Shown here: one piece after another, positions 460 through 22,294 of the stretch
Position numbering within the stretch: the first letter of the stretch is position 1
Layout of the letters: every line of letters starts with the position of its first letter
NCBI GenBank assembly: GCA_027488865.1
Contig: JAIYAU010000023.1
Span: 1 to 34,701, forward strand
Direction: 5' to 3'
DNA: 34,701 nt
Source of the DNA: Cytophagaceae bacterium
Lineage (GTDB): Bacteria; Bacteroidota; Bacteroidia; Cytophagales; UBA9547
Position numbers and translations under genes: made by a program
Notes under the pieces: model-generated
Seen by the model: only the letters and a program-made list of their open reading frames with translations
Database searches by the model: none
What the model was told of the DNA's origin: nothing

Positions 460-1023
460 ATGAAACCTATTAAATTTATTCTTGAAGGAGTGCCTATTGA
501 GGGAGCGTTGCAATCTAAAGTAGCTAAAAAGGACCTGTATGGTTACGCCAAAAAGCTGGTGCTCAAAGGGGATGTTCCACTCGAAAAGGGTTATATCTCA
601 TCTGAAGGAAAATTGATTCCTAGAAAAGCGCTATCCTTAGAAAAATGTGATCCTTTGGGTTCGCCTATTGAAGCCATTCAAATAGAACTTAACGGCGAAG
701 TGGCAGAAAAAAAACCAAGTACCTTGGAGGAGCCAGCGCAATTAGTTCAAGCAAAAATAACTGATTTGGTTGGTTTTAATGTTACCGATGTATACCCACT
801 TCAACTAAAATTGAACCCAGGTTTGTATGCTACCCAATTTTCGTACTACGCCAATATTTTACGTAAAGAAGCTTTTTTATTGGTAAAGGAAGATGATCAG
901 GCATTTCTGTTGGTGGGTGAAGCTAAATCAACCGCGTGGATAGGTAATGTAGTCCTTTACGATTTTTTTAATACTACCGAAGAGGAAGAAGAAAGTGACG
1001 AATTGGACTTTGACATGATTTAA
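460..1023 (+). CDS. Uncharacterised protein, first gene of the ATP-dependent ligase cassette
   Basis: I do not recognise this family. From the ATG at 460 the protein has 187 residues. An in-frame GTG at 436 would add eight residues, but ATG with MKPIKFILEG is the more natural start. No signal peptide or membrane segment is visible, so it should be cytoplasmic. The N-terminal half is rich in Lys, Pro and Gly and includes EKGYISSEGKLIPRKALSL. The C-terminal part is more hydrophobic and ends in a strongly acidic tail (EEEEES then DELDFDMI), as in proteins that contact basic partners or mimic nucleic acid. The next gene starts 12 bp downstream and the third overlaps the second, so the three are very likely one operon with the ligase. 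Its role is inferred only from that context: a cofactor of a nucleic acid joining reaction is possible. The gene is confident, the function unknown. Confidence 0.8.
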   Translation: MKPIKFILEGVPIEGALQSKVAKKDLYGYAKKLVLKGDVPLEKGYISSEGKLIPRKALSLEKCDPLGSPIEAIQIELNGEVAEKKPSTLEEPAQLVQAKITDLVGFNVTDVYPLQLKLNPGLYATQFSYYANILRKEAFLLVKEDDQAFLLVGEAKSTAWIGNVVLYDFFNTTEEEEESDELDFDMI

Positions 1024-1035
1024 ATAATTTTTTTA

Positions 1036-1731
1036 ATGGATTTACTACACTTAGAATACAATGGAAAATCGGCCAAACTACCGATAAGGAGTTTGCCGGC
1101 CAAAATAAAACCACAACTGAGCTATAAAACAAGTGTGGGAAAGTTAAGTTCTGTGCTGTTGAGGTCAGGGATAAACCCACTTGTACAAACTGAAAATATT
1201 TCATTTCAAGATATAATTGATAAAGATGATGAAATTATTTTAGACGGGATAGGTGAGGCAGTTGATCGAGACACATTGTCTACAGCCTATTATGACCCAG
1301 CCAATCCCCAACCCGAAACCGGATTTGAGTTTGTGGATGTTATATTTGGGCCGGATGGAGCAGAAAAACAACGCAGGCCACATTTGATTCGATCGGCCAA
1401 TATAAACACTTTAAATCCAATTAAAATAACCAAACAATTGCCTATCAACGAAGCATTTGCTTCATTTGTTTTTAAACAAACCCATCAAATTGTGCATGAA
1501 GATGGCTTAATGCGTGATTTTTTGTTTGGATTGGCACAAGATTTACATCAATCACAAACGATTGCGGTATTGGGCGCAGGCGCTAAAGGAAATCAACCCT
1601 TAATAGTGAGGGACAAGGGTAATCCCTACCGCGCATTTTTGTATGGTGAAATAGGCACTGGCGATAATGCTGGTGCGTATAAATTGTTATTATTACTTTC
1701 AGATCAAGAACTTAAACTTCCCGAGGCATGA
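1036..1731 (+). CDS. Uncharacterised protein, second gene of the ligase cassette
   Basis: 231 residues, starting at an ATG 12 bp after the previous stop. Its stop overlaps the next start in an ATGA arrangement (1728-1731), which implies translational coupling to the ligase-like gene. No transmembrane segment or signal peptide is visible. The middle contains an acidic stretch (DIIDKDDEIILDG) and the C-terminal third has a Gly-rich run (VLGAGAKGNQ), but no motif I can assign to a known enzyme. FVDVIFGPDGAEKQRRPH is a distinctive segment for searches. The tight coupling suggests its product is needed in a fixed ratio with the ligase. I do not recognise the family. Confidence 0.85.
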   Translation: MDLLHLEYNGKSAKLPIRSLPAKIKPQLSYKTSVGKLSSVLLRSGINPLVQTENISFQDIIDKDDEIILDGIGEAVDRDTLSTAYYDPANPQPETGFEFVDVIFGPDGAEKQRRPHLIRSANINTLNPIKITKQLPINEAFASFVFKQTHQIVHEDGLMRDFLFGLAQDLHQSQTIAVLGAGAKGNQPLIVRDKGNPYRAFLYGEIGTGDNAGAYKLLLLLSDQELKLPEA

Positions 1732-3161
1732 TTGATAGCAGCATGTTCACAGTTTCATCAGGATCCTATCGATTTGCTCCAAAAGGGGCCATTACGGATC
1801 AAGTGCTTATAGATGTAGCCAACAGATATGAGCAGCAGGTGATGCGTAAAATTGCCTTTGTGTTTCCAGATCAACTCGGACAAAGATTTTCTGGTACAAA
1901 TCAAGTGCTCGAAACCACCAAATACGATGGAGAGGGTGTTTTTATATATTTTGAAAAAGACAAATACCTATTTTGTTTTAGTCCTTCCAGTGGCAGAACT
2001 CGCCTAGGTTTTGCTGCATTAGATAATCTTAAAAGCAAACTAAACGCGGGAGTTAAAAAAGCACTTTTTAGAGCAGAATTATACTTGGCCAATATCAATG
2101 GCGTTAGAGAAAACGTGGGCGATGTGATAAGGGTAAGTTTTTCTAATAATCAAGAAGATATTAATCGATTGCATTTGGCGGTGTTTGACATGATAATGCT
2201 CGATGGCGAAGATTACCAAGTGCTTCCATTTGATAAAACTTGGGCAAAAATTGGTGACTTATTAGCTGGTAGCACTAATGACCTCGCCCACAGGGCCGAA
2301 GGAGGGCTAGTGGGGGAGAATGAAATTGAAAAAATATTTAATACCAAAATTGAAAGTGGACAAGAAGGTATTGTAGTTCGTGTTTTTTCACGAAACGAGA
2401 TTTATAAGATAAAACCGCGACGTACCATCGATGCGGTTGTAATTGGGTATGTAGAGGGTGAGTTGGAAAACGGACATGGTATTACCTCCTTATTAACAGC
2501 ACTTAATTATCCCTTGGCCAATCAACTGGTGTTTCAAACTTTGGTGCGAATAGGCTCTGGTTTTACTGATGAGCAAAGAATTTCTTTACTTTCTGTGCTG
2601 GAAAGCAGTAAAATAAACCCACCCATCATCATGACAGATTCCGACGGGCGAAGTGTTCATTTTATTAAACCAGAACTAATAGTTGAGGTCTCTTGTGAAG
2701 ACCTTATTGAAACCAGTGCTTCGAACAAAACTAACTTAACACAAGTATTTAAATACGAGGCAGGTAGTTATACTTTTGAAGGAATGAGTGTGTGTCCAAG
2801 ACCTACATTCGCCACTTTTGTAAAACTCAGGGAAGATAAAACGTTAGCAGCTGGTGGGGCAAGGTTTTCGCAAATTTCTTCAGCTACTGCCCCAACCATA
2901 AAAAAATCAAGCACTTCAAAGCCGCAGATTTTACGTAGAGAGGTTTATTTAAAAGGTGAAATGGTAAGAAAGCTGCTATTGATAAAAAATGAAAATGACA
3001 CCGTGCCGTTTCCTTATTTGATTTATTGGACAGACTATTCTTCTAAAAGAAAAGATCCGTTAAAAGTTGATTTTGAAAGTGCAGCTACTATCGAACGCGC
3101 GGAGCTGTTGTGTAAAAAATTGATTGATGAAAATATTGTTAAGGGTTGGGCACCAATGTAA
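1728..3161 (+). CDS. ATP-dependent DNA ligase-like nucleotidyltransferase with C-terminal extension
   Basis: 477 residues, with the ordered motifs of the covalent nucleotidyltransferase superfamily. Motif I is KYDGEG, with K65 as the expected adenylated lysine. Motif III is FDMIMLDGED near 153-162. Motif IV is EGIVVR at 213-218. Motif V is KIKPRRTIDAVVIG, with K227 and K229. Motif VI is in FVKLREDK, with R368, D370 and K371. The segments GFTDEQ and FIKPELIVEVS match the OB-fold part of ATP-dependent DNA ligases. The enzyme should seal nicks using ATP. Bacteria rely on NAD-dependent LigA for replication, so this would be an accessory ligase. Residues about 400-477 form an extra domain (YLIYWTDYSSKRKDPLK) that I cannot name. 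The start overlaps the upstream stop. RNA rather than DNA as substrate cannot be excluded. Confidence 0.85.
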   Translation: MIDSSMFTVSSGSYRFAPKGAITDQVLIDVANRYEQQVMRKIAFVFPDQLGQRFSGTNQVLETTKYDGEGVFIYFEKDKYLFCFSPSSGRTRLGFAALDNLKSKLNAGVKKALFRAELYLANINGVRENVGDVIRVSFSNNQEDINRLHLAVFDMIMLDGEDYQVLPFDKTWAKIGDLLAGSTNDLAHRAEGGLVGENEIEKIFNTKIESGQEGIVVRVFSRNEIYKIKPRRTIDAVVIGYVEGELENGHGITSLLTALNYPLANQLVFQTLVRIGSGFTDEQRISLLSVLESSKINPPIIMTDSDGRSVHFIKPELIVEVSCEDLIETSASNKTNLTQVFKYEAGSYTFEGMSVCPRPTFATFVKLREDKTLAAGGARFSQISSATAPTIKKSSTSKPQILRREVYLKGEMVRKLLLIKNENDTVPFPYLIYWTDYSSKRKDPLKVDFESAATIERAELLCKKLIDENIVKGWAPM

Positions 3162-3162
3162 T

Positions 3163-3891
3163 TTACCAATTTCTGCTACTCAGTACCAAATGGGTAGCAG
3201 AAAGTGTAACCATTATAACACTCCCAAAATACAATAAATCTCTGCTGTCAACAAGCCCTTTGCTAATAGATTGATAGTGGTAATCGATGCCAAATTGAGA
3301 AATAATATCTGACCACGTGCCCCATACATTTACAGAGGCAAGTGCTGTAAAGCCTGAATGGAATAAATAACATAAAAATACAGCAATTATAAATGCAGTA
3401 ATTTGATTTTCATTTAAGGAAGAGGTAAAAATGCCGATGGCTGTAAAAACTGCTCCCAATAGAAAGAGTCCTAGGTACGAACCAATTACCCCAGCAGTAT
3501 CAATGTTGTTTTCAGGATTGCCCAAGGCCCTAATGCTATAATAGTATATAAAAGTGGGAAGTATGGATAAGACCACGAGGGTTAAACCTGCCAAGTATTT
3601 ACCCAAAATTATGTCCCAATCGGTTAAAGGTTTGGTAAATAAAAGCTCCATGGTGCCTCCTTTTTTTTCTTCAGCAAATGTGCGCATGGTGATGGCAGGA
3701 ATTAAAAACATAAAAATAAATGGGGCAATAGAAAAAAGCGTGTCCATGTCAGCAAAACCATATTCCAAAACACTAGTATCTGGAAAAACCCACATAAACA
3801 AACCCATACCTGTCAAAAACAACCCAATAACAATGTAGGCTATCATTGAATTGAGAAAGGAATTGATTTCTTTTAAAAGAATACTTATCAT
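3163..3891 (-). CDS. gldF: GldF-type ABC-2 permease (gliding motility-associated)
   Basis: 242 residues with about six hydrophobic membrane segments. The phrase TFAEEKKGGTMELLFTKPL near residues 71-89 is the conserved cytoplasmic stretch of ABC-2 permeases of the GldF/NosY type. It would form the membrane channel of the Gld ABC transporter in the inner membrane, powered by GldA, whose gene ends 3 bp upstream, so the two are cotranscribed. In Flavobacterium this transporter is linked to gliding and T9SS function; its substrate is not established. The usual third subunit gene, gldG, does not follow. Instead the stop codon lies 1 bp from the stop of the convergent ligase gene. A generic ABC-2 permease is the alternative. 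Confidence 0.85.
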   Translation of the reverse strand: MISILLKEINSFLNSMIAYIVIGLFLTGMGLFMWVFPDTSVLEYGFADMDTLFSIAPFIFMFLIPAITMRTFAEEKKGGTMELLFTKPLTDWDIILGKYLAGLTLVVLSILPTFIYYYSIRALGNPENNIDTAGVIGSYLGLFLLGAVFTAIGIFTSSLNENQITAFIIAVFLCYLFHSGFTALASVNVWGTWSDIISQFGIDYHYQSISKGLVDSRDLLYFGSVIMVTLSATHLVLSSRNW

Positions 3892-3894
3892 GAG

Positions 3895-4806
3895 TTATTT
3901 TGTTAAATCACCAAAAATTTGTTCTAAAGAGCCTTCTTCTTGCTTAAGTTCAATTAAAGGCCAGCGATTTTCTGCAGCTAGTTTAAATATGATTGATCTT
4001 ATGTCTTTGTCCTTGTTAGTTTTTAACTGATATTTTCCATTAGCAACACGACTCACCGCTAGGGCACCTTCCAGTTGCTCTAGTTGACTCATGTCTATAT
4101 CTTGCTCAAACTCAATATTTATAAGCATAATAGTCTGATGGCCCGATTTAAGTGCTCCGATGGTTTCGTTGGCCACAATTTTACCTTTGTTTATAATCAC
4201 CACCTGGTCACACAGTTGCTGCACTTCTTGCATAATGTGTGTTGAGAAAATAACTGTTTTTTCCTTGCCTATTTCTCTTATTACCTCCCTTATTTCAATG
4301 ATTTGGTTAGGGTCCAGTCCAGTGGTTGGCTCATCCAATATCAATACTTCTGGATCATGTAATATAGCTTGTGCCAACCCTACACGTTGTCTGTAGCCTT
4401 TAGACAATGAACCTATTTTTTTATTTTTTTCTACTAAAAGGCCAGTGAGGGATATCATTTCTTTGATTCTCTTTGCCAATTTTTCTCCTTTAATACCATG
4501 AATACCACCTATAAAACTTAGATATTCATACACGTACATATCTAGATACAAGGGATTGTGCTCTGGTAAATAACCTATGCGCTTTTTTGATTCTATAGGT
4601 GACAAGGTTACATCGATGCCACACACAATTATTTTGCCTTCGGTAGGAGGGAGGTAGCTGGTAGCAATTTTCATGGTCGTGGATTTGCCTGCTCCATTAG
4701 GACCCAAAAATCCCAAAATCTTGCCTTTTTCGGCGGTAAAGCTAATATTGTCTACTGCTGTCTGAGTGCCAAAAGTTTTTGTTAAATTAATTACCTGTAC
4801 CGACAC
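3895..4806 (-). CDS. gldA: GldA-type ABC transporter ATPase
   Basis: 303 residues. The Walker A motif GPNGAGKST is at 35-43, the ABC signature LSKGYRQ at 134-140, Walker B LILDEP at 155-160, and the H-loop histidine is in FSTHIMQEV. The C-terminal ~80 residues after GKIVANETIG match the GldA-type extension rather than a short generic ATPase. It binds and hydrolyses ATP on the cytoplasmic face to drive the partner permease (3163-3891). A good Bacteroidota promoter lies upstream on the minus strand (4857-4888), divergent from the 7TM receptor gene. Confidence 0.88.
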   Translation of the reverse strand: MSVQVINLTKTFGTQTAVDNISFTAEKGKILGFLGPNGAGKSTTMKIATSYLPPTEGKIIVCGIDVTLSPIESKKRIGYLPEHNPLYLDMYVYEYLSFIGGIHGIKGEKLAKRIKEMISLTGLLVEKNKKIGSLSKGYRQRVGLAQAILHDPEVLILDEPTTGLDPNQIIEIREVIREIGKEKTVIFSTHIMQEVQQLCDQVVIINKGKIVANETIGALKSGHQTIMLINIEFEQDIDMSQLEQLEGALAVSRVANGKYQLKTNKDKDIRSIIFKLAAENRWPLIELKQEEGSLEQIFGDLTK

Positions 4807-4888: not shown

Positions 4889-5001
4889 TTCTATTTGAAT
4901 AGTGAATAATTATCAATTTTCAATTTACAATTTTCCATTAACGTACATTTAGAAAAACCGATATGTATTCTTAAACAATAATTATTAAATTGTGGCTAAT
5001 T

Positions 5002-6921
5002 ATGAGAATCAAACTTTCATTCGGCTGTTATTGCACACTCAACTTTGTTAAATTTTGGTTATTGTTTGTTTCTTTGATTTGTTTTTCTTCGGGTAATGTG
5101 TTTTCTACTAACCTTGATACACTTTTTTTATCTGCCGAACCACTCGAATTAGTTTTAGAAAATAGTAAAGTAACAGTATTAGAAGATACAACGGGAAAAT
5201 TAGATTTAGCCCAAATTAATACCTTAAAGCCAATCCAAACACCTTTTACCCGTAAAGCTGGCGCTGTATACTGGGTTAAATTTATTCTTAAAAATAACGA
5301 TTATTCAGGCAAACGTTGGCATTTAGAAGCTATCGATCCACGATTTCTTAACGTTTCTTTATTTGAGTTGTCCAACGAAGGATATAAAGAGAGCCAAACC
5401 ATGGGTTCAAATCTTCAGTTTGCCAATCGACCTTTTTTTCACAAAAATTTTATTTTTAACATCAACATCAAAAGTGAAAAATCTAAAACGTTCTATTTTA
5501 GGGTACAATCGCATATCCGTAGTCCGCTCATTTTTAAAGTAAGGTCCGGCGAATATTTGTTGAGCTATTCGGTAGTGGAGTATTTTTTATTGGGGTTGTT
5601 TTATGGCATTTTGGCCATCATAATACTTTATAATTTTTTTCTTTTTATTTCAACAAAAGAAAAGGTTTACATTTTCTATGTGTTTTATGTAATAGCCTGT
5701 GGTTTTTCGGCTTTTAATGAAGACGGCACTGGCTTTCAATTTATTTGGCCATATTTCCCGCTTTTTAATACTTTTCTTATCAATTATTCACAAAGTTTGC
5801 TTTTGCTGGCGTTTGTGGTGTATGCCATTCATTTTCTTGAAATAAACAGAACCAATAGTAAATTTTATCTATTTATTATCGGTTCTACCCTCGTCTATGT
5901 ATTATATAAAGCTTTTATACTAACCCTAGGCTCTAATTACGAAGAGGTTTTAATTATCTATTTTCTTCCATTTATTCTAGTGTATTGTGCCGCCATAGAA
6001 CAAACATTTAAAAAAAGCAGGTCTGCATCGCTTTTTTTGGCTGGCTATTCAATTATTGTGCTAAGTGTATTGTTGTCAATATTGCGCATAAGTGGTTTGG
6101 TAGAAGGCAATGCGTGGAGCGTATATGGCCTAAATATTGGTTTTGTAATTGAGGTATTAATTTTGTCTTATGCCCTTGGCGACAAAATGAAATTAGCCAT
6201 AAGAGAAAAGGATAAATACCAACAAGGACTTATTACACAACTTGTTGAAAATGAAAAATTAAAAGATGAGATTAACCAAGGTCTTGAGCATAAAGTAGCC
6301 CAAAGAACTACCGAGCTCAATTACAAAAACCAATTGTTAGAAGATACGAATTTAAAACTTGAAGACGCTTTTGAGCAGTTGAAGCACCAAGCTGAAGAAA
6401 TTAAAACCATGAACGAATTGTTACATGAAGATAATAGAATGTTAAAACTTGACCTTGAGCAGCAGTCTAAAGCCAAGCTCATGTTTGAGGACACTAGTTA
6501 TGAGGAGTTCAATAAAATTTATCCAGACGAAGAACACTGCTTGAGTTATTTAGCTGAAATTAAATGGAAGAACGGTTATAGCTGCAAAAAATGTTCAAAT
6601 GTAACCTTTTTTGAAGGTAGAACGCCTTTTTCGCGAAGGTGTACCAAGTGTGGTTATGAAGAATCTGCTACTGCATACACAATTTTACATAGAAGCAAGG
6701 TCCCTATCAACAAGGCCTTTTACATTGTGTATTTGGTAAGCACTCAAAAGCAGGAAATCACTTCTGAGGAACTGTCAAAAATACTAGACCTGCGGCAAAA
6801 AACCTGTTGGAGTTTTAAACAAAAGGTAGTTATCGCCATCAATAGATTTGCGATTACCAACAAACGGCCTTACAAAAAGTGGGGAGAGCTTTTACTTGAG
6901 GACCTTACAGACGAAAATTAG
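5002..6921 (+). CDS. 7TM-DISM receptor fused to an IS1595-transposase-like zinc ribbon and helix-turn-helix
   Basis: 639 residues from the ATG at 5002; a TTG at 4990 is in frame, but the ATG gives a normal signal peptide. Order of parts: signal peptide (1-37), periplasmic 7TMR-DISMED2-like domain (about 45-185, with YWVKF), seven-helix 7TMR-DISM region (about 190-390), coiled coil (about 395-485), then a C-terminal DNA-binding-like module. That module has FNKIYPDEEHCLSYL, a zinc ribbon (C528-x2-C531 and C547-x2-C550) and a helix-turn-helix segment (LSKILDLRQKTCWSFKQK). This matches the N-terminal zinc ribbon of IS1595-family transposases. The catalytic DDE domain is absent. I infer a membrane-bound sensor acting directly on nucleic acid. 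A close paralogue lies at 20137-22044. The TPR histidine kinase gene follows 241 bp downstream. Confidence 0.85.
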   Translation: MRIKLSFGCYCTLNFVKFWLLFVSLICFSSGNVFSTNLDTLFLSAEPLELVLENSKVTVLEDTTGKLDLAQINTLKPIQTPFTRKAGAVYWVKFILKNNDYSGKRWHLEAIDPRFLNVSLFELSNEGYKESQTMGSNLQFANRPFFHKNFIFNINIKSEKSKTFYFRVQSHIRSPLIFKVRSGEYLLSYSVVEYFLLGLFYGILAIIILYNFFLFISTKEKVYIFYVFYVIACGFSAFNEDGTGFQFIWPYFPLFNTFLINYSQSLLLLAFVVYAIHFLEINRTNSKFYLFIIGSTLVYVLYKAFILTLGSNYEEVLIIYFLPFILVYCAAIEQTFKKSRSASLFLAGYSIIVLSVLLSILRISGLVEGNAWSVYGLNIGFVIEVLILSYALGDKMKLAIREKDKYQQGLITQLVENEKLKDEINQGLEHKVAQRTTELNYKNQLLEDTNLKLEDAFEQLKHQAEEIKTMNELLHEDNRMLKLDLEQQSKAKLMFEDTSYEEFNKIYPDEEHCLSYLAEIKWKNGYSCKKCSNVTFFEGRTPFSRRCTKCGYEESATAYTILHRSKVPINKAFYIVYLVSTQKQEITSEELSKILDLRQKTCWSFKQKVVIAINRFAITNKRPYKKWGELLLEDLTDEN

Positions 6922-12710: not shown

Positions 12711-14027
12711 ATGTCGATTTTCAGATTATCTACCCTGTTTATTGTATTAATGACCATCACACAAATGATGGCACAGCAACCTCAAGAAAAGGAAAGAAAT
12801 TACCAACTTCAAGGTGTTACTATACGTCCAGAATGTAAACAAATCATTGGTTATTATCCTTCATGGGAACAATATAAAAGGAACGGCGTTTTTGTGCCTG
12901 ATAATGTAAACTTCAAAAATTACACAGTAATTAACTACGCTTTTTTTGCGCCAGATACCAATGGAAATATTGCAGGCACCGATGCTTGGGGCGATAGCAT
13001 CTTATTAAGAGGTCGTTTTGATTTTGGAGCTGCTGAACAACCAGCATATTATCCAAATACTTCCCTTATAGATAATGCACACGCATGGGGAGTAAAAGTA
13101 ATGGTGTCTATTGGGGGCTGGACATTATCAGAAAATTTTCCAAGAATAGCCGCTGATCCTGTAAAACGAGCTCATTTTGCATCAGAGTGTGTTACCGCAT
13201 TAAGACGTTATAAATTTGATGGCATTGACATCGATTGGGAATATCCAGGATATGCTGAACATAAAGGCACACCTGATGACAAATACAATTACAGTCTTTT
13301 TATGGGAGCGATTAGAGATTCCATTGATGCTTACGGCGAAAAAATAAAAAAATACTTTTGGCTTAGTGCCGCCTTTGGAGCCAATAAAGCCCAAATGGAT
13401 AACATTGAATGGGATAAAATTAGTGCCACTTTGGACATGATTAACATGATGACTTATGACTATAACGGTACTTGGTCAGAAACTGCCAATCATAATTCGC
13501 CATTGTACAATCCGGCTGAAGGTGGTGTAGGTAGCATGGATGAGGCCTACAGACTAATGACCCAAACTTATAAAGTACCAGCAGAAAAGTTAAACATGGG
13601 TGTTGCTTTTTATGGTCGTACATTACTAGGAAAAAAGGATTCTAAAATTTCGCTTTATGGAAAAAGTCACCTGGCACTTACCGATTCCATAAATTTTGTT
13701 CCAGATGATGGAGGGGCTCTTTACTATAACATCCTTCTTCAAAAGGATAAATTTGACCAATTCTGGGACAGTACTGCTCAAGTACCCTATCTTATTGGTA
13801 AAAAGAATAACACTTTTGTCTCTTACGACGATGAAAAATCAATAAAACTTAAGGCAGAATATATCAAAGATAAAAAGTGTGCTGGGGCTATCATTTGGGA
13901 AATTTCTGGCGATTTTGTAGAGAAAAAGCCTGGGACCGGATTTATTAAAGGAAATCCTTTAGCTGAGGTTTTGAGAGAAACCCTTGATCCTTGTAGTTTA
14001 AGGCCAATTAGAAAAAGGTTTAAATAA
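12711..14027 (+). CDS. GH18 chitinase-type glycoside hydrolase
   Basis: 438 residues: signal peptide (MSIFRLSTLFIVLMTITQMMA, 1-21) then one GH18 catalytic domain (about 43-420). The SxGG motif is seen as VMVSIGGW and the active-site DxxDxDxE motif as DGIDIDWE at 170-177, with E177 the expected proton donor. MMTYDYNG and AGAIIWEISGD are further conserved GH18 strands. It should hydrolyse beta-1,4-GlcNAc chains by substrate-assisted catalysis. There is no carbohydrate-binding domain and no T9SS sorting domain, so it is probably periplasmic and acts on imported oligomers, while the large enzyme at 22295-24958 acts outside. It heads a run of closely spaced genes. Confidence 0.92.
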   Translation: MSIFRLSTLFIVLMTITQMMAQQPQEKERNYQLQGVTIRPECKQIIGYYPSWEQYKRNGVFVPDNVNFKNYTVINYAFFAPDTNGNIAGTDAWGDSILLRGRFDFGAAEQPAYYPNTSLIDNAHAWGVKVMVSIGGWTLSENFPRIAADPVKRAHFASECVTALRRYKFDGIDIDWEYPGYAEHKGTPDDKYNYSLFMGAIRDSIDAYGEKIKKYFWLSAAFGANKAQMDNIEWDKISATLDMINMMTYDYNGTWSETANHNSPLYNPAEGGVGSMDEAYRLMTQTYKVPAEKLNMGVAFYGRTLLGKKDSKISLYGKSHLALTDSINFVPDDGGALYYNILLQKDKFDQFWDSTAQVPYLIGKKNNTFVSYDDEKSIKLKAEYIKDKKCAGAIIWEISGDFVEKKPGTGFIKGNPLAEVLRETLDPCSLRPIRKRFK

Positions 14028-14034
14028 GGTACTG

Positions 14035-16068
14035 TTGTCAAAGTTAAAATTATATAAAATCGTGAAAATCAGAATATTCATAACATACTTGATGGTACTA
14101 TCTACCTTAATTATTCAAGCTAAAGATGACACTTCGATAGGTAAATCTGACAGTGTAGTTAATCAAAACAATACTAAAACTTGGCATAAGAGTATTTTGC
14201 TTTCTGATTTTTTCAATTTGAAAGGGCAAAAACGCAAACCAGTGGCTAGCTTTATTTTAGATGAAGAAAAGCCTAAAGAAAGTATTTTTAAGAAAAATCT
14301 ACAAATAAGCGGTATAGCAAGAATTATATCAATCTATAGAAATATGGATACTTATTATGAGGACATGATTACAAGTGAAAAGAATTTTTCTTTCACTGAT
14401 TACCCAGTTGCATTATCAGGAGCCAGCTTTTTGGGTGGTTATCCTAATCTTGAGCTTAATGTACAGTCAAAAATCACAAATGATGCCACTGTTAACGTAG
14501 GTTATTCCATGTCACATGGCTTTAGTGGACAAACGACCAACGATGCAGGTAAAAGTTTATCCTCTTTACAGAACTTAAGATTTGGTGGTAAACTTAATAC
14601 TAGTGTGGCTAAATTCAATTTAAATGTTGGAAGTGTGTTATGGACGAAATTAAGTAGATTTACACTAGGGCAAACTGAATATCGCGATGATTATTTTGAT
14701 AGATTGCCCTGGGATTGGTACAGGAAATCATTTTTAAGATATGAAGAATACCATGGTTTGGGTGCTAATGTGGGCGCACAAGGAGGCGCAAGATCACCAA
14801 TTATGGGTTTTGTAGGTAATATTGATATATTTCCAAGAAGCATCAACATAACTATGGTGCTAGGTAGAACAAACCTTACTTCCACCGATTCAAGAAAAAC
14901 ATTAGGATTTCCAGAGATGGTTTATGGTGCGAGAGTTGAAAAGAACTTTTTTGTAAAGTCTATTGATGCTAGGGTAGGTGCAAACTTTTACACGCGACGT
15001 GCAGATACTGATAAAAGCAGAGGAATTCAAGATAACAACGAGTTGTACACAGTTGATGGAAATATAAGAATTAGAAAAACCAAATTTTTTACGGAACTGG
15101 CATATGGTAAAATCAATACACCACACTTAAGAGGGGGCGAAGGCTTCGGGGGTGCGTTTAGGGTTGATTTTGACAAACGTGCTTCACCTGTACCATTTTC
15201 CATTGAGGTTTATAGAATTGATAAAAATATTGTGAGTATTGATGGTAGCATCATTAATTCTAATTCAGCTGTTCGTGGAGGTGGTTATGCTACCGAGTTT
15301 ATCTATGACGTTACAAGAATTATCAATGCTGCGCAAGAAGTAGGGCAATATGCTAACAATAGGATGGGCATTAGTTTAAATGCAGAAAAGAAATTTGGAA
15401 AATTGGCTTTCCAATTTGGTACGAATATGAGTCAGGAAATTGAAAATCTCTCTGATACCATAAGCATGCAGCACCGTATGGTTTCTTTTACAAGATCAAG
15501 ATTTAGGCCTTGGTATCAAGCAGGAGGCAATTATGGTAGAATCCGAAGCCTCTGGAGAAGAACTTACGAAACAATGATAATCTCAGATGATGGAAGTGAT
15601 TATAAAAAAGGATATAACGGCGTAGAATTATTAACTAAGTATAGGGTTAAATTTTTAACTAAAGATTTCGTTTTGATGAATTTGACCACATTTAATTCAA
15701 TTCAAAAGAACTTTTCAGGAGTTCCAGTTGTGACTGATAGAGCTTTTGCAAGAACTCTTTTTACAGAGATAACAGTGGCTTGTAAACTTACCAACAAATA
15801 TACTATCGTTGTAAATGGTGGCATTGAACGACTTAAGGGAAATAATAAAACCCTTGCCAATCCTGATAACGGAAATCCTACTGCGGATGCTATTGGCGTA
15901 GCAGCAGATCAACATGGGGAAACTTATGGGATTGGAGTCGATTATGATTTCTCTTCTACGGCAGGCCTCCATATAAGACATCGTTGGTTTAATCACCAAG
16001 ATTTTAATCTGGTCTTAGATAAGTTTAAGGGATCAGAAACCATGTTTGAATTAAAATTATTCTTCTAA
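14035..16068 (+). CDS. Outer-membrane beta-barrel protein of the chitin locus
   Basis: 677 residues from a TTG at 14035, 7 bp after the previous stop; a GTG at 14062 is an equally reasonable start and leaves the signal peptide (ends near LIIQA) intact. After about 100 residues the protein consists of alternating amphipathic strands rich in aromatic residues and turns, and ends with FELKLFF, a terminal Phe typical of outer-membrane barrels. It shows no TonB box, plug or SusC signature. It probably serves as a porin or scaffold for product uptake. The next gene, also a barrel, starts 19 bp on. The specific family is not recognised. Confidence 0.8.
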   Translation: MSKLKLYKIVKIRIFITYLMVLSTLIIQAKDDTSIGKSDSVVNQNNTKTWHKSILLSDFFNLKGQKRKPVASFILDEEKPKESIFKKNLQISGIARIISIYRNMDTYYEDMITSEKNFSFTDYPVALSGASFLGGYPNLELNVQSKITNDATVNVGYSMSHGFSGQTTNDAGKSLSSLQNLRFGGKLNTSVAKFNLNVGSVLWTKLSRFTLGQTEYRDDYFDRLPWDWYRKSFLRYEEYHGLGANVGAQGGARSPIMGFVGNIDIFPRSINITMVLGRTNLTSTDSRKTLGFPEMVYGARVEKNFFVKSIDARVGANFYTRRADTDKSRGIQDNNELYTVDGNIRIRKTKFFTELAYGKINTPHLRGGEGFGGAFRVDFDKRASPVPFSIEVYRIDKNIVSIDGSIINSNSAVRGGGYATEFIYDVTRIINAAQEVGQYANNRMGISLNAEKKFGKLAFQFGTNMSQEIENLSDTISMQHRMVSFTRSRFRPWYQAGGNYGRIRSLWRRTYETMIISDDGSDYKKGYNGVELLTKYRVKFLTKDFVLMNLTTFNSIQKNFSGVPVVTDRAFARTLFTEITVACKLTNKYTIVVNGGIERLKGNNKTLANPDNGNPTADAIGVAADQHGETYGIGVDYDFSSTAGLHIRHRWFNHQDFNLVLDKFKGSETMFELKLFF

Positions 16069-16087
16069 ATAAGCAATTAGTATTACA

Positions 16088-17791
16088 ATGAACATAATGA
16101 GAATTTCCAAATATTACCTTTTCATTTTCTTGCTTTCTACAAATGTGATATTGAAAGCACAAACTGAGTTTTCACTTGACGCTCTTGGAAGATCTATTTT
16201 TACGAATAACAAGTTGGAAGGTGATTCAGTAGTTAACACTTCTTCATCCGATAAAAAGGGTGTGAGTGGCTATGTATTGTTCGACCTTGGAACCAATTTA
16301 AAATACAAGGATTTACTTCAAGCAAATGCCATTTTGCGTGCTAAAAGTCCATTTGGGGCGGCGTTTGGTCAACCAACTGTGTTTCAATTTAGACAATTCC
16401 AATTAATAGGTAAAATAAACAAGAATATCAACTATGAAATAGGTGATATAAATGTAGAACTTACTCCTTATACAGTTTTTAATGCGAATGAAACATTCAG
16501 CACTTATGAATCGGATATTTTCAAAAACAGACGTAACGTAGTAGAGTACGAAAATTTTATCTTTGGAAATGTTTGGCGTTTGCAAGGAGCACAATCAAGA
16601 GCAAAGTTTGATTTTGAAAAAGGCATTAAATCAATTAAGGTGTATGGATTTGGAACAAGGACTAACGCTACTAATAATACTAACGTCGCAGACAGAATTC
16701 TTGCTGGTGGGCGAGTAGGTATAGTACAAAGCGATTTGTTACAAGTAGGTGCTAATTATACTGGTTTGCTGGATGTTACAGTTGATCGTGTAGATGTTGA
16801 ATATAAAAGTAATGTATTAACAGGTGATATTAAGTTTAATCTTGATAAAGAAAATTTTGGGTTGGTAGCTAAATATGAAGGAGGTTTGTCATCCTACAAT
16901 TTTACCCAAAAATCGTTAAAAGTTGATAGTAGTTTTAACGACTATTTTTATGATGGTAACGTAACAGTTACTATCAAACCAGCAAAAATCAAATTACTAG
17001 GAGGTTATAAAGAAGTTGGGCCTCAATTTTATAGCCCAGCTGCACAAACCGTTCGTTTAGATCCTTCCTTGAATTCTGGATTGTTCCCTACCATAGGTAC
17101 ACAAAGAACACAAACACTTTACGATCGTACGACGCAAGAGAACTTGTACAATAGATCAATCAATCCTGTATTTTACAACTTTAACCCTGTATTTGGTAAT
17201 ATTGATCCATACGGCGTTGCTACACCAAATAGACGAGGTTTTAGCGCTGGTTTGGCCTCAGATACTTCATTTAAATTTGCAAATTTCACAATTAACTACA
17301 CCTCACAATCCGAAATAATTGGAGAAGGAACTACCGAAAAAAGGAAATTTGTTGGCATAAATGGAGGAGTTGTGTTGGATATAGCAAAATTAGTTACCGC
17401 TAAACGAGTTATAAGTTTAACAATAGGAGGGAGGCAAGAGAAAACTACAAGAGGTGGTTATTCAAGTATAGATTTTACTACGAATTCTATTGATGCAGGA
17501 CTTACCGTAGAGGCTTTTAAAAAGTTTGACATAATGGTTGGTTATAAAGCCATTAAAGCTGAAGGAAATGAGTACCTAGGGTCACGGAATGTCTTCAATC
17601 AATTAGAAAATTTCCAGTCAATTAAATACGACCTTAATCAAAACAACTACGCTTTTGGTGCTAGAGTAAGATTTGCAGATAAATCATATTTGATTCTTAA
17701 CTATAATTTAAGTAAGGCTGCGTTTAACAATATAGAAGGTAATAATTATGCGATTAAGCAATTGTTCATTAATTATACTATAATATTTTAA
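16088..17791 (+). CDS. Second outer-membrane beta-barrel protein
   Basis: 567 residues with a clear signal peptide (ends near VILKAQ). The mature part is a series of amphipathic strands (VSGYVLFDLGTNLKYK, AFGARVRFADKSYLILNYN) and the last strand ends FINYTIIF, with terminal Phe as expected for BAM-assembled barrels. It is not similar enough by eye to the preceding barrel to call a recent duplicate, but both have the same layout. It sits 10 bp upstream of a lipoprotein gene. By position it could form an outer-membrane complex with the two lipoproteins, replacing SusC/SusD. No TonB-dependent receptor features are visible. Confidence 0.8.
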   Translation: MNIMRISKYYLFIFLLSTNVILKAQTEFSLDALGRSIFTNNKLEGDSVVNTSSSDKKGVSGYVLFDLGTNLKYKDLLQANAILRAKSPFGAAFGQPTVFQFRQFQLIGKINKNINYEIGDINVELTPYTVFNANETFSTYESDIFKNRRNVVEYENFIFGNVWRLQGAQSRAKFDFEKGIKSIKVYGFGTRTNATNNTNVADRILAGGRVGIVQSDLLQVGANYTGLLDVTVDRVDVEYKSNVLTGDIKFNLDKENFGLVAKYEGGLSSYNFTQKSLKVDSSFNDYFYDGNVTVTIKPAKIKLLGGYKEVGPQFYSPAAQTVRLDPSLNSGLFPTIGTQRTQTLYDRTTQENLYNRSINPVFYNFNPVFGNIDPYGVATPNRRGFSAGLASDTSFKFANFTINYTSQSEIIGEGTTEKRKFVGINGGVVLDIAKLVTAKRVISLTIGGRQEKTTRGGYSSIDFTTNSIDAGLTVEAFKKFDIMVGYKAIKAEGNEYLGSRNVFNQLENFQSIKYDLNQNNYAFGARVRFADKSYLILNYNLSKAAFNNIEGNNYAIKQLFINYTIIF

Positions 17792-17801
17792 GAGATTAAT
17801 T

Positions 17802-18872
17802 ATGAAAGTATTAACTGCAATATCCGTCTTCTTCTTTTGTCTAGGTATTATTAGTTGCAAAAGAACTGCTAAGGATTTAGATATTCTTGGCAAAGAATAT
17901 CAAGCGGCCTCGGCTGACTTTAAAGTTCTTTCAGTGGTGAGAAATAGAATAAATGATGGTTATAGACTTGCAAACAGTAACTCTCCTTTGGTTTATAATA
18001 TGAAGTTTTCTCAGGAGGTAACTTGGAAAATTACTATTACAAGCAAGGCCACTGGTGCATACCAAGAATTTAACGGCTTTTCTGATACTATTGCTGATTA
18101 CAATTTTAAATGGCGTGGTTCATCGGCTGGTTACAGGTTTTTTAGTGTTGCTGATACGGCAATCATTAATTTAACCGTGTTAGGACGTGAAATTCCAGTA
18201 TTTAGAGACACTATTAATATTATTAATTTGCCTAATTTAAGTAATAACAATATTAAAGGAGTATTTCATTACCTAGTGGGAGATTTTGAATCTGGAGGTA
18301 ATTCATTTGGAACACCTTACAATGATGTTAGCGATGATGGTTCAAAATTCATTGCAGTTTTGGATGAAATAAGCGATAAGGTCCAAGGTTTATCATCTTT
18401 TTATTTCGCAGGAAGTGACGCCCTCAATCCTAATACCTACGTGGGAGGCTGCGATACACGAAATTTATATGATTTGGCACAAAAATTCTCAAAAATTTCA
18501 CCCGATAGCACCTATATAAATTTATACATAAAAGGAACAGAGAAAAAGGGTACTTCTCTACTTTTAATTGTTTATGAGCAAGATGGAGAAACAGGAAGTT
18601 CGTTTAATTTAAATATTAATGATAAGTATCAGAATAGAGTTGTAGTTGATTGGGTTGGTTGGAAACTAGTAAGTATACCATATAGTAAATTTACCAAAGC
18701 AACTTCTGGCGGAGGTCTAGGAAATAATGAGCTGGAATCAGATAAAATTAGCGGGTTTTCAATTCAATTGGAATCCTATCCAGATGGAGGTAAAGATGTA
18801 GAGGCTTACATAGATTATGTGATTTTTACTCAAGGTAAGCCATTTGATATAAGTATTATTGACAAAATTTAA
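17802..18872 (+). CDS. Lipoprotein of the chitin locus, paralogue of the next gene
   Basis: 356 residues. The N-terminus has a lipoprotein signal peptide with lipobox GIISC (C20 the lipidated residue). A beta-rich N-terminal domain contains VTWKITITSKATGAYQEF and GFSDTI, then a jelly-roll-like C-terminal domain ends AYIDYVIFTQGKPFD. The next gene shares these landmarks (VSWAISIKG, GFSDSI, IYVDFVVFTKDVPF), so the two are paralogues. The C-terminal part resembles sugar-binding jelly-roll modules in general shape, but I cannot name a family. A likely role is glycan binding at the outer membrane in place of SusD. No catalytic motif is apparent. Confidence 0.82.
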   Translation: MKVLTAISVFFFCLGIISCKRTAKDLDILGKEYQAASADFKVLSVVRNRINDGYRLANSNSPLVYNMKFSQEVTWKITITSKATGAYQEFNGFSDTIADYNFKWRGSSAGYRFFSVADTAIINLTVLGREIPVFRDTINIINLPNLSNNNIKGVFHYLVGDFESGGNSFGTPYNDVSDDGSKFIAVLDEISDKVQGLSSFYFAGSDALNPNTYVGGCDTRNLYDLAQKFSKISPDSTYINLYIKGTEKKGTSLLLIVYEQDGETGSSFNLNINDKYQNRVVVDWVGWKLVSIPYSKFTKATSGGGLGNNELESDKISGFSIQLESYPDGGKDVEAYIDYVIFTQGKPFDISIIDKI

Positions 18873-18878
18873 TTGATT

Positions 18879-19856
18879 ATGAGATCATTATATTTATTAT
18901 TATTTTCTTTAGTAGTTGTGGGGTTTTATACTTCATGTATAAGAACCGAGGACAGTAGTTTTGTAGGACCTAGCTTATGTCCTACTTCAAATTTTAAAAT
19001 TTTGGAGGATTTTAAGCTAAGTAAGAGCAAAATTGATTTTAACGTGGACGGAACCTTGGGCTTGTCTGCAAAATTTAATGAGAAAGTAAGTTGGGCGATC
19101 TCTATTAAGGGCAGTTCTGGTGCTAAAAAAACTTTTGAGGGTTTTTCAGATTCAATCCAAGTTGAATGGTACGGTAATCAAGATTCTTTAATTTTCTTTC
19201 AGGCAGAAAATTGTGTTGTTTCTTTAACTGTAGCCTGTCAAAATCCTATTGTTGAAAACGTAAAGATTACCACAAAAAACAAGTTTTTAAATACGAAAGG
19301 GTACGCTTATTTGCTTTCAGATATGGAAAACGATACCAGGGTGGGAAGTTATCCTGGTGGTCCAACTAATCTACCTGGGGATACAATAACGTTTGTATCT
19401 TACGGCATTGACTCTTCTAGTATATCTAAATCCCCTGCTGGAGGTGGTTTTTATAGGATGGAAGTAGCTAAAAAACAAAATGCTTGGTTTTTTGGAGGCA
19501 TTACTTTTACAAAAAATGCAGCTTTTAATGTAAATTCATTAAAGGCATTATCTACTGATCCGTCAAAGATTTATTTTAATTGTTTCATACACGGAGATGA
19601 TAATTTTACCAATAATCAGGCACAGATTTATATGTCGTTTGGTAAAATAGTTAAACAAGATTTAAATTTTAGTGGATGGAAATATGTAAGTTTTAAATTG
19701 TCTGATTTAAGGATTACAAATTTAAATAATGTTGCTCCCGAAATTCAACTCGGAGCTTCACCTGTACAAACGCGAAAAGGTAAAATATATGTAGATTTTG
19801 TTGTTTTTACCAAAGATGTACCATTTATTGATCTTAATAAGAATCAACAGAAGTAA
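18879..19856 (+). CDS. Second paralogous lipoprotein of the chitin locus
   Basis: 325 residues from the ATG at 18879; a TTG two codons upstream (18873) is also in frame. The signal peptide ends in lipobox FYTSC. The body aligns by eye with the previous lipoprotein: an N-terminal domain with VSWAISIKGSSGAKKTFEGF, and a C-terminal domain with KIYVDFVVFTKDVPF. It is shorter than its neighbour. The 6-bp gap between the two genes and the similarity suggest tandem duplication followed by divergence. It probably binds glycan on the cell surface. The family is not recognised. Confidence 0.8.
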   Translation: MRSLYLLLFSLVVVGFYTSCIRTEDSSFVGPSLCPTSNFKILEDFKLSKSKIDFNVDGTLGLSAKFNEKVSWAISIKGSSGAKKTFEGFSDSIQVEWYGNQDSLIFFQAENCVVSLTVACQNPIVENVKITTKNKFLNTKGYAYLLSDMENDTRVGSYPGGPTNLPGDTITFVSYGIDSSSISKSPAGGGFYRMEVAKKQNAWFFGGITFTKNAAFNVNSLKALSTDPSKIYFNCFIHGDDNFTNNQAQIYMSFGKIVKQDLNFSGWKYVSFKLSDLRITNLNNVAPEIQLGASPVQTRKGKIYVDFVVFTKDVPFIDLNKNQQK

Positions 19857-19914
19857 AAGATAACCTTAATTCTAGATTTCCGTTCTGATAAGAATTGTTA
19901 ATATTATTTGTATT

Positions 19915-20124
19915 ATGGCAAAACCTTTTAATGTTTTTATACAAGAAGACGACGAAAAACAACGGGTAATTATACTTGATGAATTAAAACATTTCAATTA
20001 TCTAATTACTTTTTTTCCAAAAGAAGAATCGTTGTTTGACTTGATAGATTTAAAACCTGATATGGTTATTCCCGATTATCAAAAAATGGAGGTTATTGAT
20101 TGTCATCAGTTGGGGTTGGCTTAG
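19915..20124 (+). CDS. Half-length receiver (response-regulator-like) protein
   Basis: 69 residues matching the N-terminal half of a CheY-like receiver domain. VFIQEDDEKQ corresponds to the first strand and acidic pocket (E11, D12, D13), and DLKPDMVIPDY to the third strand with the phosphoacceptor aspartate (D54). A whole receiver has about 115-120 residues, with the conserved Thr/Ser and Lys in the second half; these are missing. Only 12 bp separate the stop from the next gene, so the lost half is not recoverable by a frameshift. It may be a decayed gene, or a mini-protein kept for coupling to the receptor gene just downstream. Confidence 0.6.
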   Translation: MAKPFNVFIQEDDEKQRVIILDELKHFNYLITFFPKEESLFDLIDLKPDMVIPDYQKMEVIDCHQLGLA

Positions 20125-20136
20125 TTCACCATTGTC

Positions 20137-22044
20137 GTGCGAAGAATAGATGTTTTAATTGCTTTATTTTTACTTGTTTTAATTAATATTTCTTGGGCGG
20201 TTAAGCCTATAAATATTAGTGACAATACCAAAGATTTCGCTCTGGTAAATGATTATTATGAAATATTTGAAGACCCTACTGGTAATCTAAATATTTATGA
20301 TGTTATTACAGATTCTATTGATCGCAAGTTTGTACTTAATCAAGATTATTACAATTATAACAGAAATACGTCTTCTGCTTACTGGATTAAATTTAAGGTA
20401 AATAAGCAGTCGGGTACTCAATCAAGTTTTGTATTTGAATCGTATTCCTCTCACACAAAAAACCTGCAGCTTTTTGTACCCTCAGTTAATGGGCATTTTA
20501 ATATACACAAGGCTGGGCTAGATTTCGCATTTAAGGATCGGGATTACATACATCAAAATCTTGTTTTTGACCTAAATGTTGCGGATGGTAAAGAAACCAT
20601 TTGTTATGTTAGAGTATATTCCGATAATCACAGCGCCTTCGAGTTTAGGATTAAAAGCAATAACTATTTTTCATTTTATTCTACCAACGAGTATTATTAT
20701 TTAGGTATATTTTATGGCATTTTGTTAATAATGGCCATTTACAACCTATTACTTTTTCTTTCAATTAAAGACAAGGTTTATCTTTTTTATGTTTTCTATG
20801 TTTTAAGTTGTATGCTTTCTACTTTGGCCGATGATGGTTTAGGTCTTAGATACATTTGGCCATCAGCCCAAAATTTAGACAACTTTATCGGTCATGTAAT
20901 AGCGCCAAATCTGCTCCTATTTAGTTTTCTTTTTTATGCCAATGAGTTTTTAAGTATAAAGTCGAAGCACTCTACTTATTACAATTATGTGCGATATGCT
21001 ACTATAATTTATGTAGTTTATTTTATAATTGAAAAGATTTTTCTACCTGATAACATTCAAATAAGGATTTTTTATTTGTTACCTTTTTTGACAGTTTACA
21101 CCATATCCATATTTTGTTTTTATAAAGGACAAACAACAGCCCGTTACTTTATCATTGGTTATACTTTTATTTTTTTAAGTATTATTTTAATTCAATTACG
21201 CGCTTCTGGTACAATAGAAGGTAATATTTTTACTGTTTATAGCCTTAATTATGGGCTTATTTTTGAAGTAGTGGTGTTTTCATTTGGTTTGTCCGAACGA
21301 ATTAAGCACATTTTAAAAGAGAAGCAAGAAGCACAATCTGGAATAATAGATCAACTAGAAAAAAACAATAAACTTCAAGAAGAGATTAACATTCAACTTG
21401 AACATAATAATTTGCTTCAAGAAAAGGTGAATCGTGAACTTGAAGCAAAAGTAACTGAGCGTACTGAGGAAATAAATCAAAAGAATGTAGAACTTGAAGA
21501 AACCAACAAAAAGCTAAAAGAGATGACCGAAAGAGCCAACTCTATGGCTGCAAAGCTGGATCTTGATAATTGGAATTTACAAAAGTATGTTAAAGAAGAA
21601 ATAAAAGCTCGCATAAGTGACCAAGAGGTGCCCTATGAGGAATTTATTAAAATTTTTCCAAATGAACACGCCTGTTTTAAATTTTTGGATGACTTAAAAT
21701 GGAAGGACAATTCCTTTTCATGTCGCAAATGTAAAAATGTAAAATATATAAAAGGGATTAAACCATTTTCTAGAAAATGTACACGATGTGGATATGTTGA
21801 ATCCGTAACAGCCTATACATTGTTTCATGGTGTACGATTTGAGGTAGATAAAGCATTTTACATGACCTATATTGTACATAGAAGGGGCACCAAGATCACG
21901 TTAGATCAATTATCAGACCTTCTACAACTAAGACGTAACACTTGCTGGAATTTCAAGAAAAAGATTCTAAGCACAATTGATCTATATAAAACTACACATC
22001 CCAAAGGACCAGAACATTGGGAAGACATTATTTTGGAAAATTAA
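20137..22044 (+). CDS. Second 7TM-DISM receptor with IS1595-transposase-like zinc ribbon
   Basis: 635 residues from a GTG at 20137; no ATG start is available nearby. Signal peptide 1-21 (ends SWA). The layout is as in the paralogue at 5002-6921: periplasmic DISMED2-like domain (YWIKFKV), seven membrane helices (about 185-390), coiled coil (about 395-490), then FIKIFPNEHACFKFL, the zinc ribbon (C529-x2-C532 and C548-x2-C551) and a helix-turn-helix stretch (LSDLLQLRRNTCWNFKKK). Cysteine spacing is identical to the paralogue. No DDE transposase domain follows. Its position between glycan-binding lipoproteins and the T9SS chitinase suggests that it senses chitin breakdown products or envelope state and controls this locus. 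That role is inferred. Confidence 0.85.
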   Translation: MRRIDVLIALFLLVLINISWAVKPINISDNTKDFALVNDYYEIFEDPTGNLNIYDVITDSIDRKFVLNQDYYNYNRNTSSAYWIKFKVNKQSGTQSSFVFESYSSHTKNLQLFVPSVNGHFNIHKAGLDFAFKDRDYIHQNLVFDLNVADGKETICYVRVYSDNHSAFEFRIKSNNYFSFYSTNEYYYLGIFYGILLIMAIYNLLLFLSIKDKVYLFYVFYVLSCMLSTLADDGLGLRYIWPSAQNLDNFIGHVIAPNLLLFSFLFYANEFLSIKSKHSTYYNYVRYATIIYVVYFIIEKIFLPDNIQIRIFYLLPFLTVYTISIFCFYKGQTTARYFIIGYTFIFLSIILIQLRASGTIEGNIFTVYSLNYGLIFEVVVFSFGLSERIKHILKEKQEAQSGIIDQLEKNNKLQEEINIQLEHNNLLQEKVNRELEAKVTERTEEINQKNVELEETNKKLKEMTERANSMAAKLDLDNWNLQKYVKEEIKARISDQEVPYEEFIKIFPNEHACFKFLDDLKWKDNSFSCRKCKNVKYIKGIKPFSRKCTRCGYVESVTAYTLFHGVRFEVDKAFYMTYIVHRRGTKITLDQLSDLLQLRRNTCWNFKKKILSTIDLYKTTHPKGPEHWEDIILEN

Positions 22045-22046
22045 TT

Positions 22047-22082
22047 GTATCGGTATTAAAACGATACTACTTCTATATTTTT
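22047..22082 (+). terminator. Possible terminator after the second 7TM receptor gene
   Basis: GTATCG (22047-22052) pairs with CGATAC (22062-22067), starting 3 bp after the stop codon, and a T-rich run follows about 10 bp later (22077-22083). The stem is short and the T-run is not adjacent, so this is tentative. If real, it separates the chitinase gene at 22295 from the upstream operon. Confidence 0.35.
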
Positions 22083-22294
22083 TAGTCAGATATAAAACAG
22101 CTCTTGTTTTTTTTAATATTAATCAGCAAATCTTATGTCGTTTTAATGGATTAAACGCAACCAAAAATTGTGTTTTTCTTATTTAGTTTAGAAACATTTT
22201 AACACTTTGGTTGTAATTTCGTTGAATAGTGCATCATTAACTGGTTTAAATTATACTGAGGATATTAAATTGTTGGTTTATTAATTATAATAGT

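Follow-up and report, generated by a model that had tools for sequence, protein, structure and literature searches.

How could a sensor held in the membrane act through a domain that resembles the DNA-binding part of a transposase? The question is raised by a gene in the window, the stretch of 34,701 nucleotides analysed here (Cytophagaceae bacterium, order Cytophagales; assembly GCA_027488865.1, contig JAIYAU010000023.1). The gene lies on the forward strand at 5002–6921 and encodes 639 amino acids from the ATG at 5002; its mechanical open reading frame begins at a TTG at 4990. An earlier note, made from the letters alone, had read the product as a one-component receptor of the membrane, with a DNA-binding domain captured from a transposase as its output. 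Sequence comparisons, structural models, a tree and a survey of relatives support this reading, in which DNA binding by the module is predicted.

Architecture of the receptor

Pfam and AlphaFold bore out the succession of signal peptide, periplasmic domain, seven membrane helices and coiled coil that the note had described. The putative signal peptide, a first helix that is hydrophobic in sequence and helical in the AlphaFold model, occupies 5029–5088 (residues 10–29). It is followed by a periplasmic 7TMR-DISMED2 beta sandwich at 5164–5523 (residues 55–174; PF07696, E 2e-21), by the seven-helix 7TMR-DISM membrane domain at 5578–6186 (residues 193–395; PF07695, E 9e-39) and by a long helix or coiled-coil linker at 6187–6486 (residues 396–495; AlphaFold). 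The protein ends in an IS1595-type zinc ribbon at 6523–6657 (residues 508–552; PF12760, E 3e-7) and a three-helix helix-turn-helix (HTH) segment at 6706–6861 (helices 569–581, 588–595 and 599–620; AlphaFold). The profile searches for 7TMR-DISM and IS1595 zinc-ribbon domains that the note had suggested thus all gave matches, and the three families (7TMR-DISMED2, 7TMR-DISM_7TM and Zn_ribbon_IS1595) exceeded the Pfam curated cut-offs. The zinc-ribbon cysteines, C528-x2-C531 and C547-x2-C550, lie exactly where they had been placed. The likeness of the HTH stretch to IS1595 transposases was also recovered: the NCBIfam model NF033547 matches residues 564–614 with E 1.4e-6, at 28.4 bits for a cut-off of 75 and over 52 of its 215 positions.

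Structure prediction of the C-terminal segment gave a confident module (143 residues, pLDDT 93.6), composed of a zinc-ribbon hairpin and a helix-turn-helix (H92–99 and H103–124, module numbering). In the model of the full receptor (mean pLDDT 80.3) the parts follow in the order signal helix, beta sandwich, 7TM, long helix and module, with one continuous helix at 376–495 in which pLDDT is below 50 at 459–475. By fold, the best PDB match of the receptor is the periplasmic domain of RetS (3jyb, E 2.8e-6).

As the note had claimed, the catalytic DDE domain is absent. Only 19 residues separate the last HTH helix from the C-terminal end, and a search of the genome with DDE_Tnp_IS1595 (PF12762) gave no match at E <= 0.001. 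Histidine kinase and receiver domains had no Pfam match in this receptor or in a second one that the window encodes at 20137. From what is known of the family, a signal peptide followed by seven helices would place the output in the cytoplasm.

Copies in the genome and spread of the fusion

The genome (4.33 Mb, 64 contigs) encodes nine receptors with PF07695, six of which end in the IS1595 module; the remaining three (L018, L020, L021) read by eye as histidine kinases. The second receptor of the window (forward strand, 20137–22044; 635 aa) has a like architecture, with 7TM at E 4e-42, DISMED2 at E 2e-23 and PF12760 at E 5e-5, the last under the cut-off as a protein match and above it as a genome match. 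Its zinc ribbon lies at 21658–21795 on the forward strand (genome profile match). Compared with the 5002 receptor, the five other copies show 35–49% identity in the module and 25–38% over the full length. The six copies have thus diverged, and the family is therefore old.

The module was found in 97 of 241 genomes and 46 of 103 genera of the order (E <= 1e-8, transposases included). Among the best 30 loci in the order, 28 are 7TM fusions (two of them incomplete, and our own gene counted), the other two being a locus with a DDE domain and a short one. In a sample of the phylum, 52 of 395 genomes carried the module at E <= 1e-10; among the matches listed outside the order, frames mostly measure about 300 aa, and two are longer (650 and 663 aa).

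When named genomes were scanned with a single peptide pattern, 203 relatives emerged, of which the best 80 were kept (L053–L132) and sorted with home-made profiles. Receptor fusions account for 21 of these 80 (two incomplete), 19 have a DDE domain and 40 consist of the module only. The sources of the receptor fusions include Cytophagaceae metagenome-assembled genomes (MAGs), Hymenobacter, Sporocytophaga, Mangrovivirga, Pinibacter and Mucilaginibacter MAGs. In the same set, the IS1595-like copies of Membranihabitans marinus (L067–L104) have open frames, some with clear terminal repeats; by eye, most of them seem to have lost or shifted the first acidic DDE residue.

Association with glycan-use genes

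Bacteroidota are major degraders of polysaccharides. In the genome studied here, a glycan gene lies within two genes of four of the six receptor genes: GH18 for the receptor at 20137, CE2/polysaccharide deacetylase for C21, a GH5 cellulase for C24 and GH9 for C15. The C36 copy has no glycan gene within two genes, and a VWA/YfbK protein is encoded upstream of it.

In the window, the second receptor gene is followed directly by a gene (22295–24958, forward strand; E 3e-41) for a GH18 chitinase-family protein with a CHU_C-type Ig domain, which this receptor probably controls. Another GH18 gene lies upstream (12711–14027, forward strand; E 6e-74). The two GH18 genes flank the receptor together with four genes at 14035–19856 (327–677 aa) that had no Pfam match at E <= 0.001, and the whole of 12711–24958 is possibly a chitin-use locus.

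Among the receptor-class loci of named genomes (n = 22, L087 included), glycan or TonB/SusC genes were present at 13, the other nine being unscanned or blank by eye. The 20 neighbours run on Pfam were hand-picked, and they include proteins that are not glycan enzymes (a VWA protein, a DUF2339 protein and a plain MFS transporter). The association was then assessed in a matched test, in which 18 preset query proteins drawn from these neighbours were searched in 20 receptor regions, taken from 15 genomes within the order, and in 20 control regions of the same contigs at a distance of about 40 kb. The test regions were chosen non-randomly, for long contigs and varied genera, with up to four per genome; one of them, L188, lies on the contig of L070 from the discovery set, and had no match. 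Matches were found in 11 of 20 receptor regions versus 2 of 20 controls (Fisher p 0.006), the other nine receptor regions having no match with any preset query. A SusC-SusD pair directly downstream on the same strand was present in 10 of 20 receptor regions versus none of 20 controls (p 0.0004), the ten regions not being independent because they come from nine genomes of four families. In a later look at the receptor regions only, GH3, GH67/GH10/GH43 and ribokinase/sugar-transport neighbours appeared in three more; these are not counted, since the controls had no equal search. At the level of the family, receptor genes thus often adjoin genes for the digestion of sugar polymers; the receptors, acting from the membrane, therefore probably switch them directly.

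Candidate operators

A motif search in 22 intergenic regions next to receptor genes (L056, a near copy of L055, was left out) gave TGTTTTTTAAGCG-like sites, whose boxes, of the form TGTT-TTTAAGCG, we treat as candidate operators. The motif scored 77.8 versus 55.8–65.4 in 12 control sets, and 72.1 versus 52.6–54.5 with a Markov background, in a comparison that favours the real set because the controls received 120 starts versus 200 and, where regions were longest, less sequence. A matrix was then made by hand and by eye from 15 sites. Ten held-out regions, which contributed no letters to the matrix but had been viewed earlier, outrank 184 control regions (p 0.001 on both strands, 0.017 on the gene strand); one of the ten falls under the control median. 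Pairs of sites at 64–66, 80 and 90–91 bp occur in 9 of the 22 regions, at spacings chosen after viewing. The spacing is not sharply peaked, pairs being enriched at most distances.

In the window, a tentative operator at 22051–22068 (forward strand, score 10.3, with the motif derived from other genomes) lies between the second receptor and its GH18 neighbour; this site is weak alone, since it is only the seventh best in the window. Autoregulation found little support in our genome: upstream of five of its receptor genes, four had no good motif site (best 5.7), and a site scoring 13.1 lies upstream of the C36 receptor, on the opposite strand. By eye, a second recurring word, approximately TTTATCAG-nn-AGTTAT, stands near the candidate operators in the intergenic regions of L055, L057, L065, L195 and L198; it may be a promoter or a second site.

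Proposed mechanism and alternatives

We propose, with a probability of roughly 0.75, that these proteins are one-component regulators which, in the manner of SusR, control glycan use from within the membrane, through a DNA-binding domain domesticated from a transposase. The periplasmic DISMED2 domain would sense a ligand, in most cases a sugar or a piece of a glycan. The seven membrane helices and the long coiled coil would relay the change, probably within a dimer, and the cytoplasmic IS1595 zinc ribbon and HTH would bind DNA near the membrane, upstream of nearby glycan-use genes. Transcription of SusC/SusD, glycoside hydrolase and esterase genes would then change. Signalling by sugars in the periplasm is proposed because the sensor matches the fold of RetS and because the DISMED2 domain of NicD is carbohydrate-binding according to the part of PMC8544897 consulted.

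For the 5002 receptor itself, we give somewhat less than even odds to a specialised role, with the same fusion and mechanism and a non-glycan target such as gldA/gldF, the TPR histidine kinase gene or distant loci. This refines the proposal above, and the odds of the two overlap. No glycan gene stands beside this receptor: its neighbours are gldF and gldA (gliding motility ABC transporter; 3163–4806), divergent and about 190 bp away, and a co-oriented TPR histidine kinase gene about 240 bp downstream. Its module falls in one unresolved group of the tree described below with four modules of one genus; one of these four, L153, belongs to the receptor of test region L187, which had no match with the glycan queries. 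Against a separate role, the sensor is of the DISMED2 type, as in the paralogues, and no good motif site was found in the flanks of the receptor gene (best 4.3) or near either neighbour. Further upstream, 1728–3161 encodes a 477-aa protein with ATP-dependent DNA ligase domains.

A module that targets RNA or a partner protein, or one left over without function, in a receptor that signals otherwise, is unlikely. Such readings draw on the fact that DNA binding is predicted and that the module has no close structural relative: a Foldseek search of the PDB gave nothing at E <= 0.001, and a search by sequence gave no significant relative, the top insignificant matches being ribosomal zinc ribbons. 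The weak fold matches (Z at most 4.1) consist largely of DNA-binding chains of the HTH or homeodomain kind, with the transposase IstA at Z 3.1. Conservation points the other way. In an alignment of 24 receptors, preselected as receptor-like and including all six copies of our genome, the four cysteines and an E-S-x-T-A-x-T-x-x-H motif are invariant; the cysteines are invariant in 60 aligned modules too. No other part of the receptors is conserved as well as the module, which has a mean pairwise identity of 46% versus 38% for the coil, 34% for the 7TM domain and 25% for the sensor. Pfam (E <= 1e-3) found the 7TM domain in 24 of these proteins, DISMED2 in 23, the IS1595 ribbon in 20 and no other family, hence no kinase or other cytoplasmic domain through which they might signal. 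The enriched upstream motif also argues for a DNA-binding output.

About equally improbable is a module cut from the membrane that acts as a released soluble regulator. DDE-less modules that stand alone are common among relatives, making up 39 of the 40 module-only loci in the best 80 (L087 is the exception, its module following two membrane helices and a coil), and the module may therefore work alone. The solitary modules, in stop-to-stop frames of 120–232 aa (mostly 135–200 aa), come mostly from Bacteroidales and unplaced Bacteroidetes; they resemble small regulators that act on their own. L081, L084, L101 and L125 are examples of such modules, and neighbour families recur beside the group. 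In the receptors, however, the coil that joins the 7TM domain to the module is conserved, at the 38% mean identity given above, and by eye a coil recurs with other membrane heads.

Finally, both a recent insertion of IS1595 within a receptor gene and an error of assembly can be dismissed: the module is indeed homologous to an insertion sequence transposase, but the genome has no DDE match, its six copies have diverged, the tree places the receptor modules apart from transposases, and the fusion, whose absence from relatives the earlier note had named as a sign of such an insertion, proved widespread and old across many genomes.

Origin of the module and other membrane heads

A quick tree, without bootstrap, was built from 143 modules and 120 columns; it left out modules shorter than 100 aa, identical modules and L130, and it holds the 5002 module twice (W5002 and L136). 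On one side of the tree (SH-aLRT 94) stand 109 rows, comprising the receptor modules, those of the Reg_prop and two-helix proteins described below, 37 solitary modules and one incomplete receptor; the transposases lie outside. The 37 solitary modules form a group of their own (support 96). As exceptions, the short rows L080 and L141 fall among the transposases, and L024 and L037 among distant outgroups. Given this separation, the simplest reading of the sequences would be a single domesticated, DDE-less lineage, in which the transposase presumably came first.

Other heads were sought among 20 stretches fetched for odd frames. L163 (1068 aa; 1006–4209 of its stretch) and L164 (1001 aa; 891–3893) carry Reg_prop repeats and Y_Y_Y, and end in the IS1595 module, which by eye is preceded by a membrane helix and a coil. 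Kinase, receiver and AraC domains had no Pfam match in either. In L087 and L181 (303–307 aa), two membrane helices and a coil precede the module. The IS1595 module is thus a swappable output, found behind three membrane heads, 7TM receptors included.

It is tempting, and rather doubtful, to suppose that an insertion sequence gave both halves of the circuit: its DNA-binding domain as the output of receptors and other heads, and operators that resemble ancestral IS1595 ends. With the operator matrix, 12 IS ends from 12 loci score as a set above background 31-mers (p 6e-5) and above their own shuffles (p 3e-5); the strand of the match differs between elements, a single genome supplied four of the 12, and three score near the background median. 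Scans with a full-length IS-end matrix were negative and speak against this idea. In the window, where it also served to look for terminal inverted repeats around the receptor gene, the matrix, which was built from other insertion sequences whose ends vary from one to another, gave a best score of 16.0 versus 11.2–16.5 in five shuffled windows, and nothing convincing was found at four paralogue loci of our genome and ten solitary-module loci.

Comparison with known systems

The 7TMR-DISM family was reportedly defined in a 2003 paper, and RetS and SagS, two of its members, end in kinase-type domains. The receptors described here share DISMED2 and 7TM with receptors of the NicD, RetS and SagS type. 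According to the part consulted of PMC8544897, a paper on SagS, NicD ends in GGDEF. The earlier note had considered the output unfamiliar, and this stands for the IS1595 module: among the matches listed in the open-access literature, titles and abstract openings held no description of a 7TMR-DISM/IS1595 fusion. It does not stand for DNA binding as such, since a 7TMR-DISM receptor with a C-terminal ChiS-family DNA-binding domain is drawn in PMC8092284 (Figure 5 legend). That domain, a cryptic HTH, is taken there from proteobacterial genomes, and the section of PMC8092284 consulted names neither a zinc ribbon nor a transposase origin. With IS1595 transposases the module shares the N-terminal zinc ribbon and HTH; unlike them, it has no DDE domain and is fused to a receptor.

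SusR-like regulators of Bacteroides are described, in the excerpt of PMC3878776 used here, as membrane proteins with a periplasmic sensor and a cytoplasmic C-terminal putative HTH; several of their genes adjoin susC/susD, and the operators predicted for them consist of direct repeats separated by long spacers (67 or 77 bp). The IS1595-tailed receptors resemble SusR-like regulators in being predicted membrane proteins with a periplasmic sensor and a cytoplasmic HTH, and in standing beside susC/susD (the 10 of 20 regions above, versus no control). The motif pairs at 64–66, 80 and 90–91 bp recall those long repeats, but pairs are enriched at most distances. The receptors differ in the sensor, DISMED2 with 7TM, and in the DNA-binding part, an IS1595 zinc ribbon with HTH; the 5002 receptor itself, unlike SusR-like regulators, has no susC/susD or glycan enzyme beside it.

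Hybrid two-component systems (HTCS) of Bacteroidetes are a further parallel, through the control of SusC/SusD loci that we propose, and we take the Reg_prop/Y_Y_Y head of L163 and L164 to be of the HTCS kind. Unlike HTCS, the window receptors, the 24 aligned receptors, L163 and L164 had no match for kinase, receiver or AraC domains. The same excerpt of PMC3878776 puts the spacing in HTCS operators at about 21 bp, and it names SusR-like proteins, HTCS and ECF sigma/anti-sigma pairs as Bacteroidetes-specific regulators proposed for polysaccharide loci.

Judging from these sources, membrane one-component regulators of glycan use (SusR) and a DNA-binding 7TMR-DISM output (the ChiS domain) were already known, and the IS1595 output, described in none of the matches listed, appears to be new. 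If our reading is right, the pairing of receptor and locus, and hence glycan preference, could be read from the genomes of little-known environmental bacteria. The receptors would have a clear evolutionary source, the DNA-binding domain of a transposase, reused as an exchangeable output behind several membrane sensors. Beside SusR-like proteins, HTCS and ECF sigma/anti-sigma pairs, they would form a fourth kind of regulator, common in the Cytophagales and with a testable operator.
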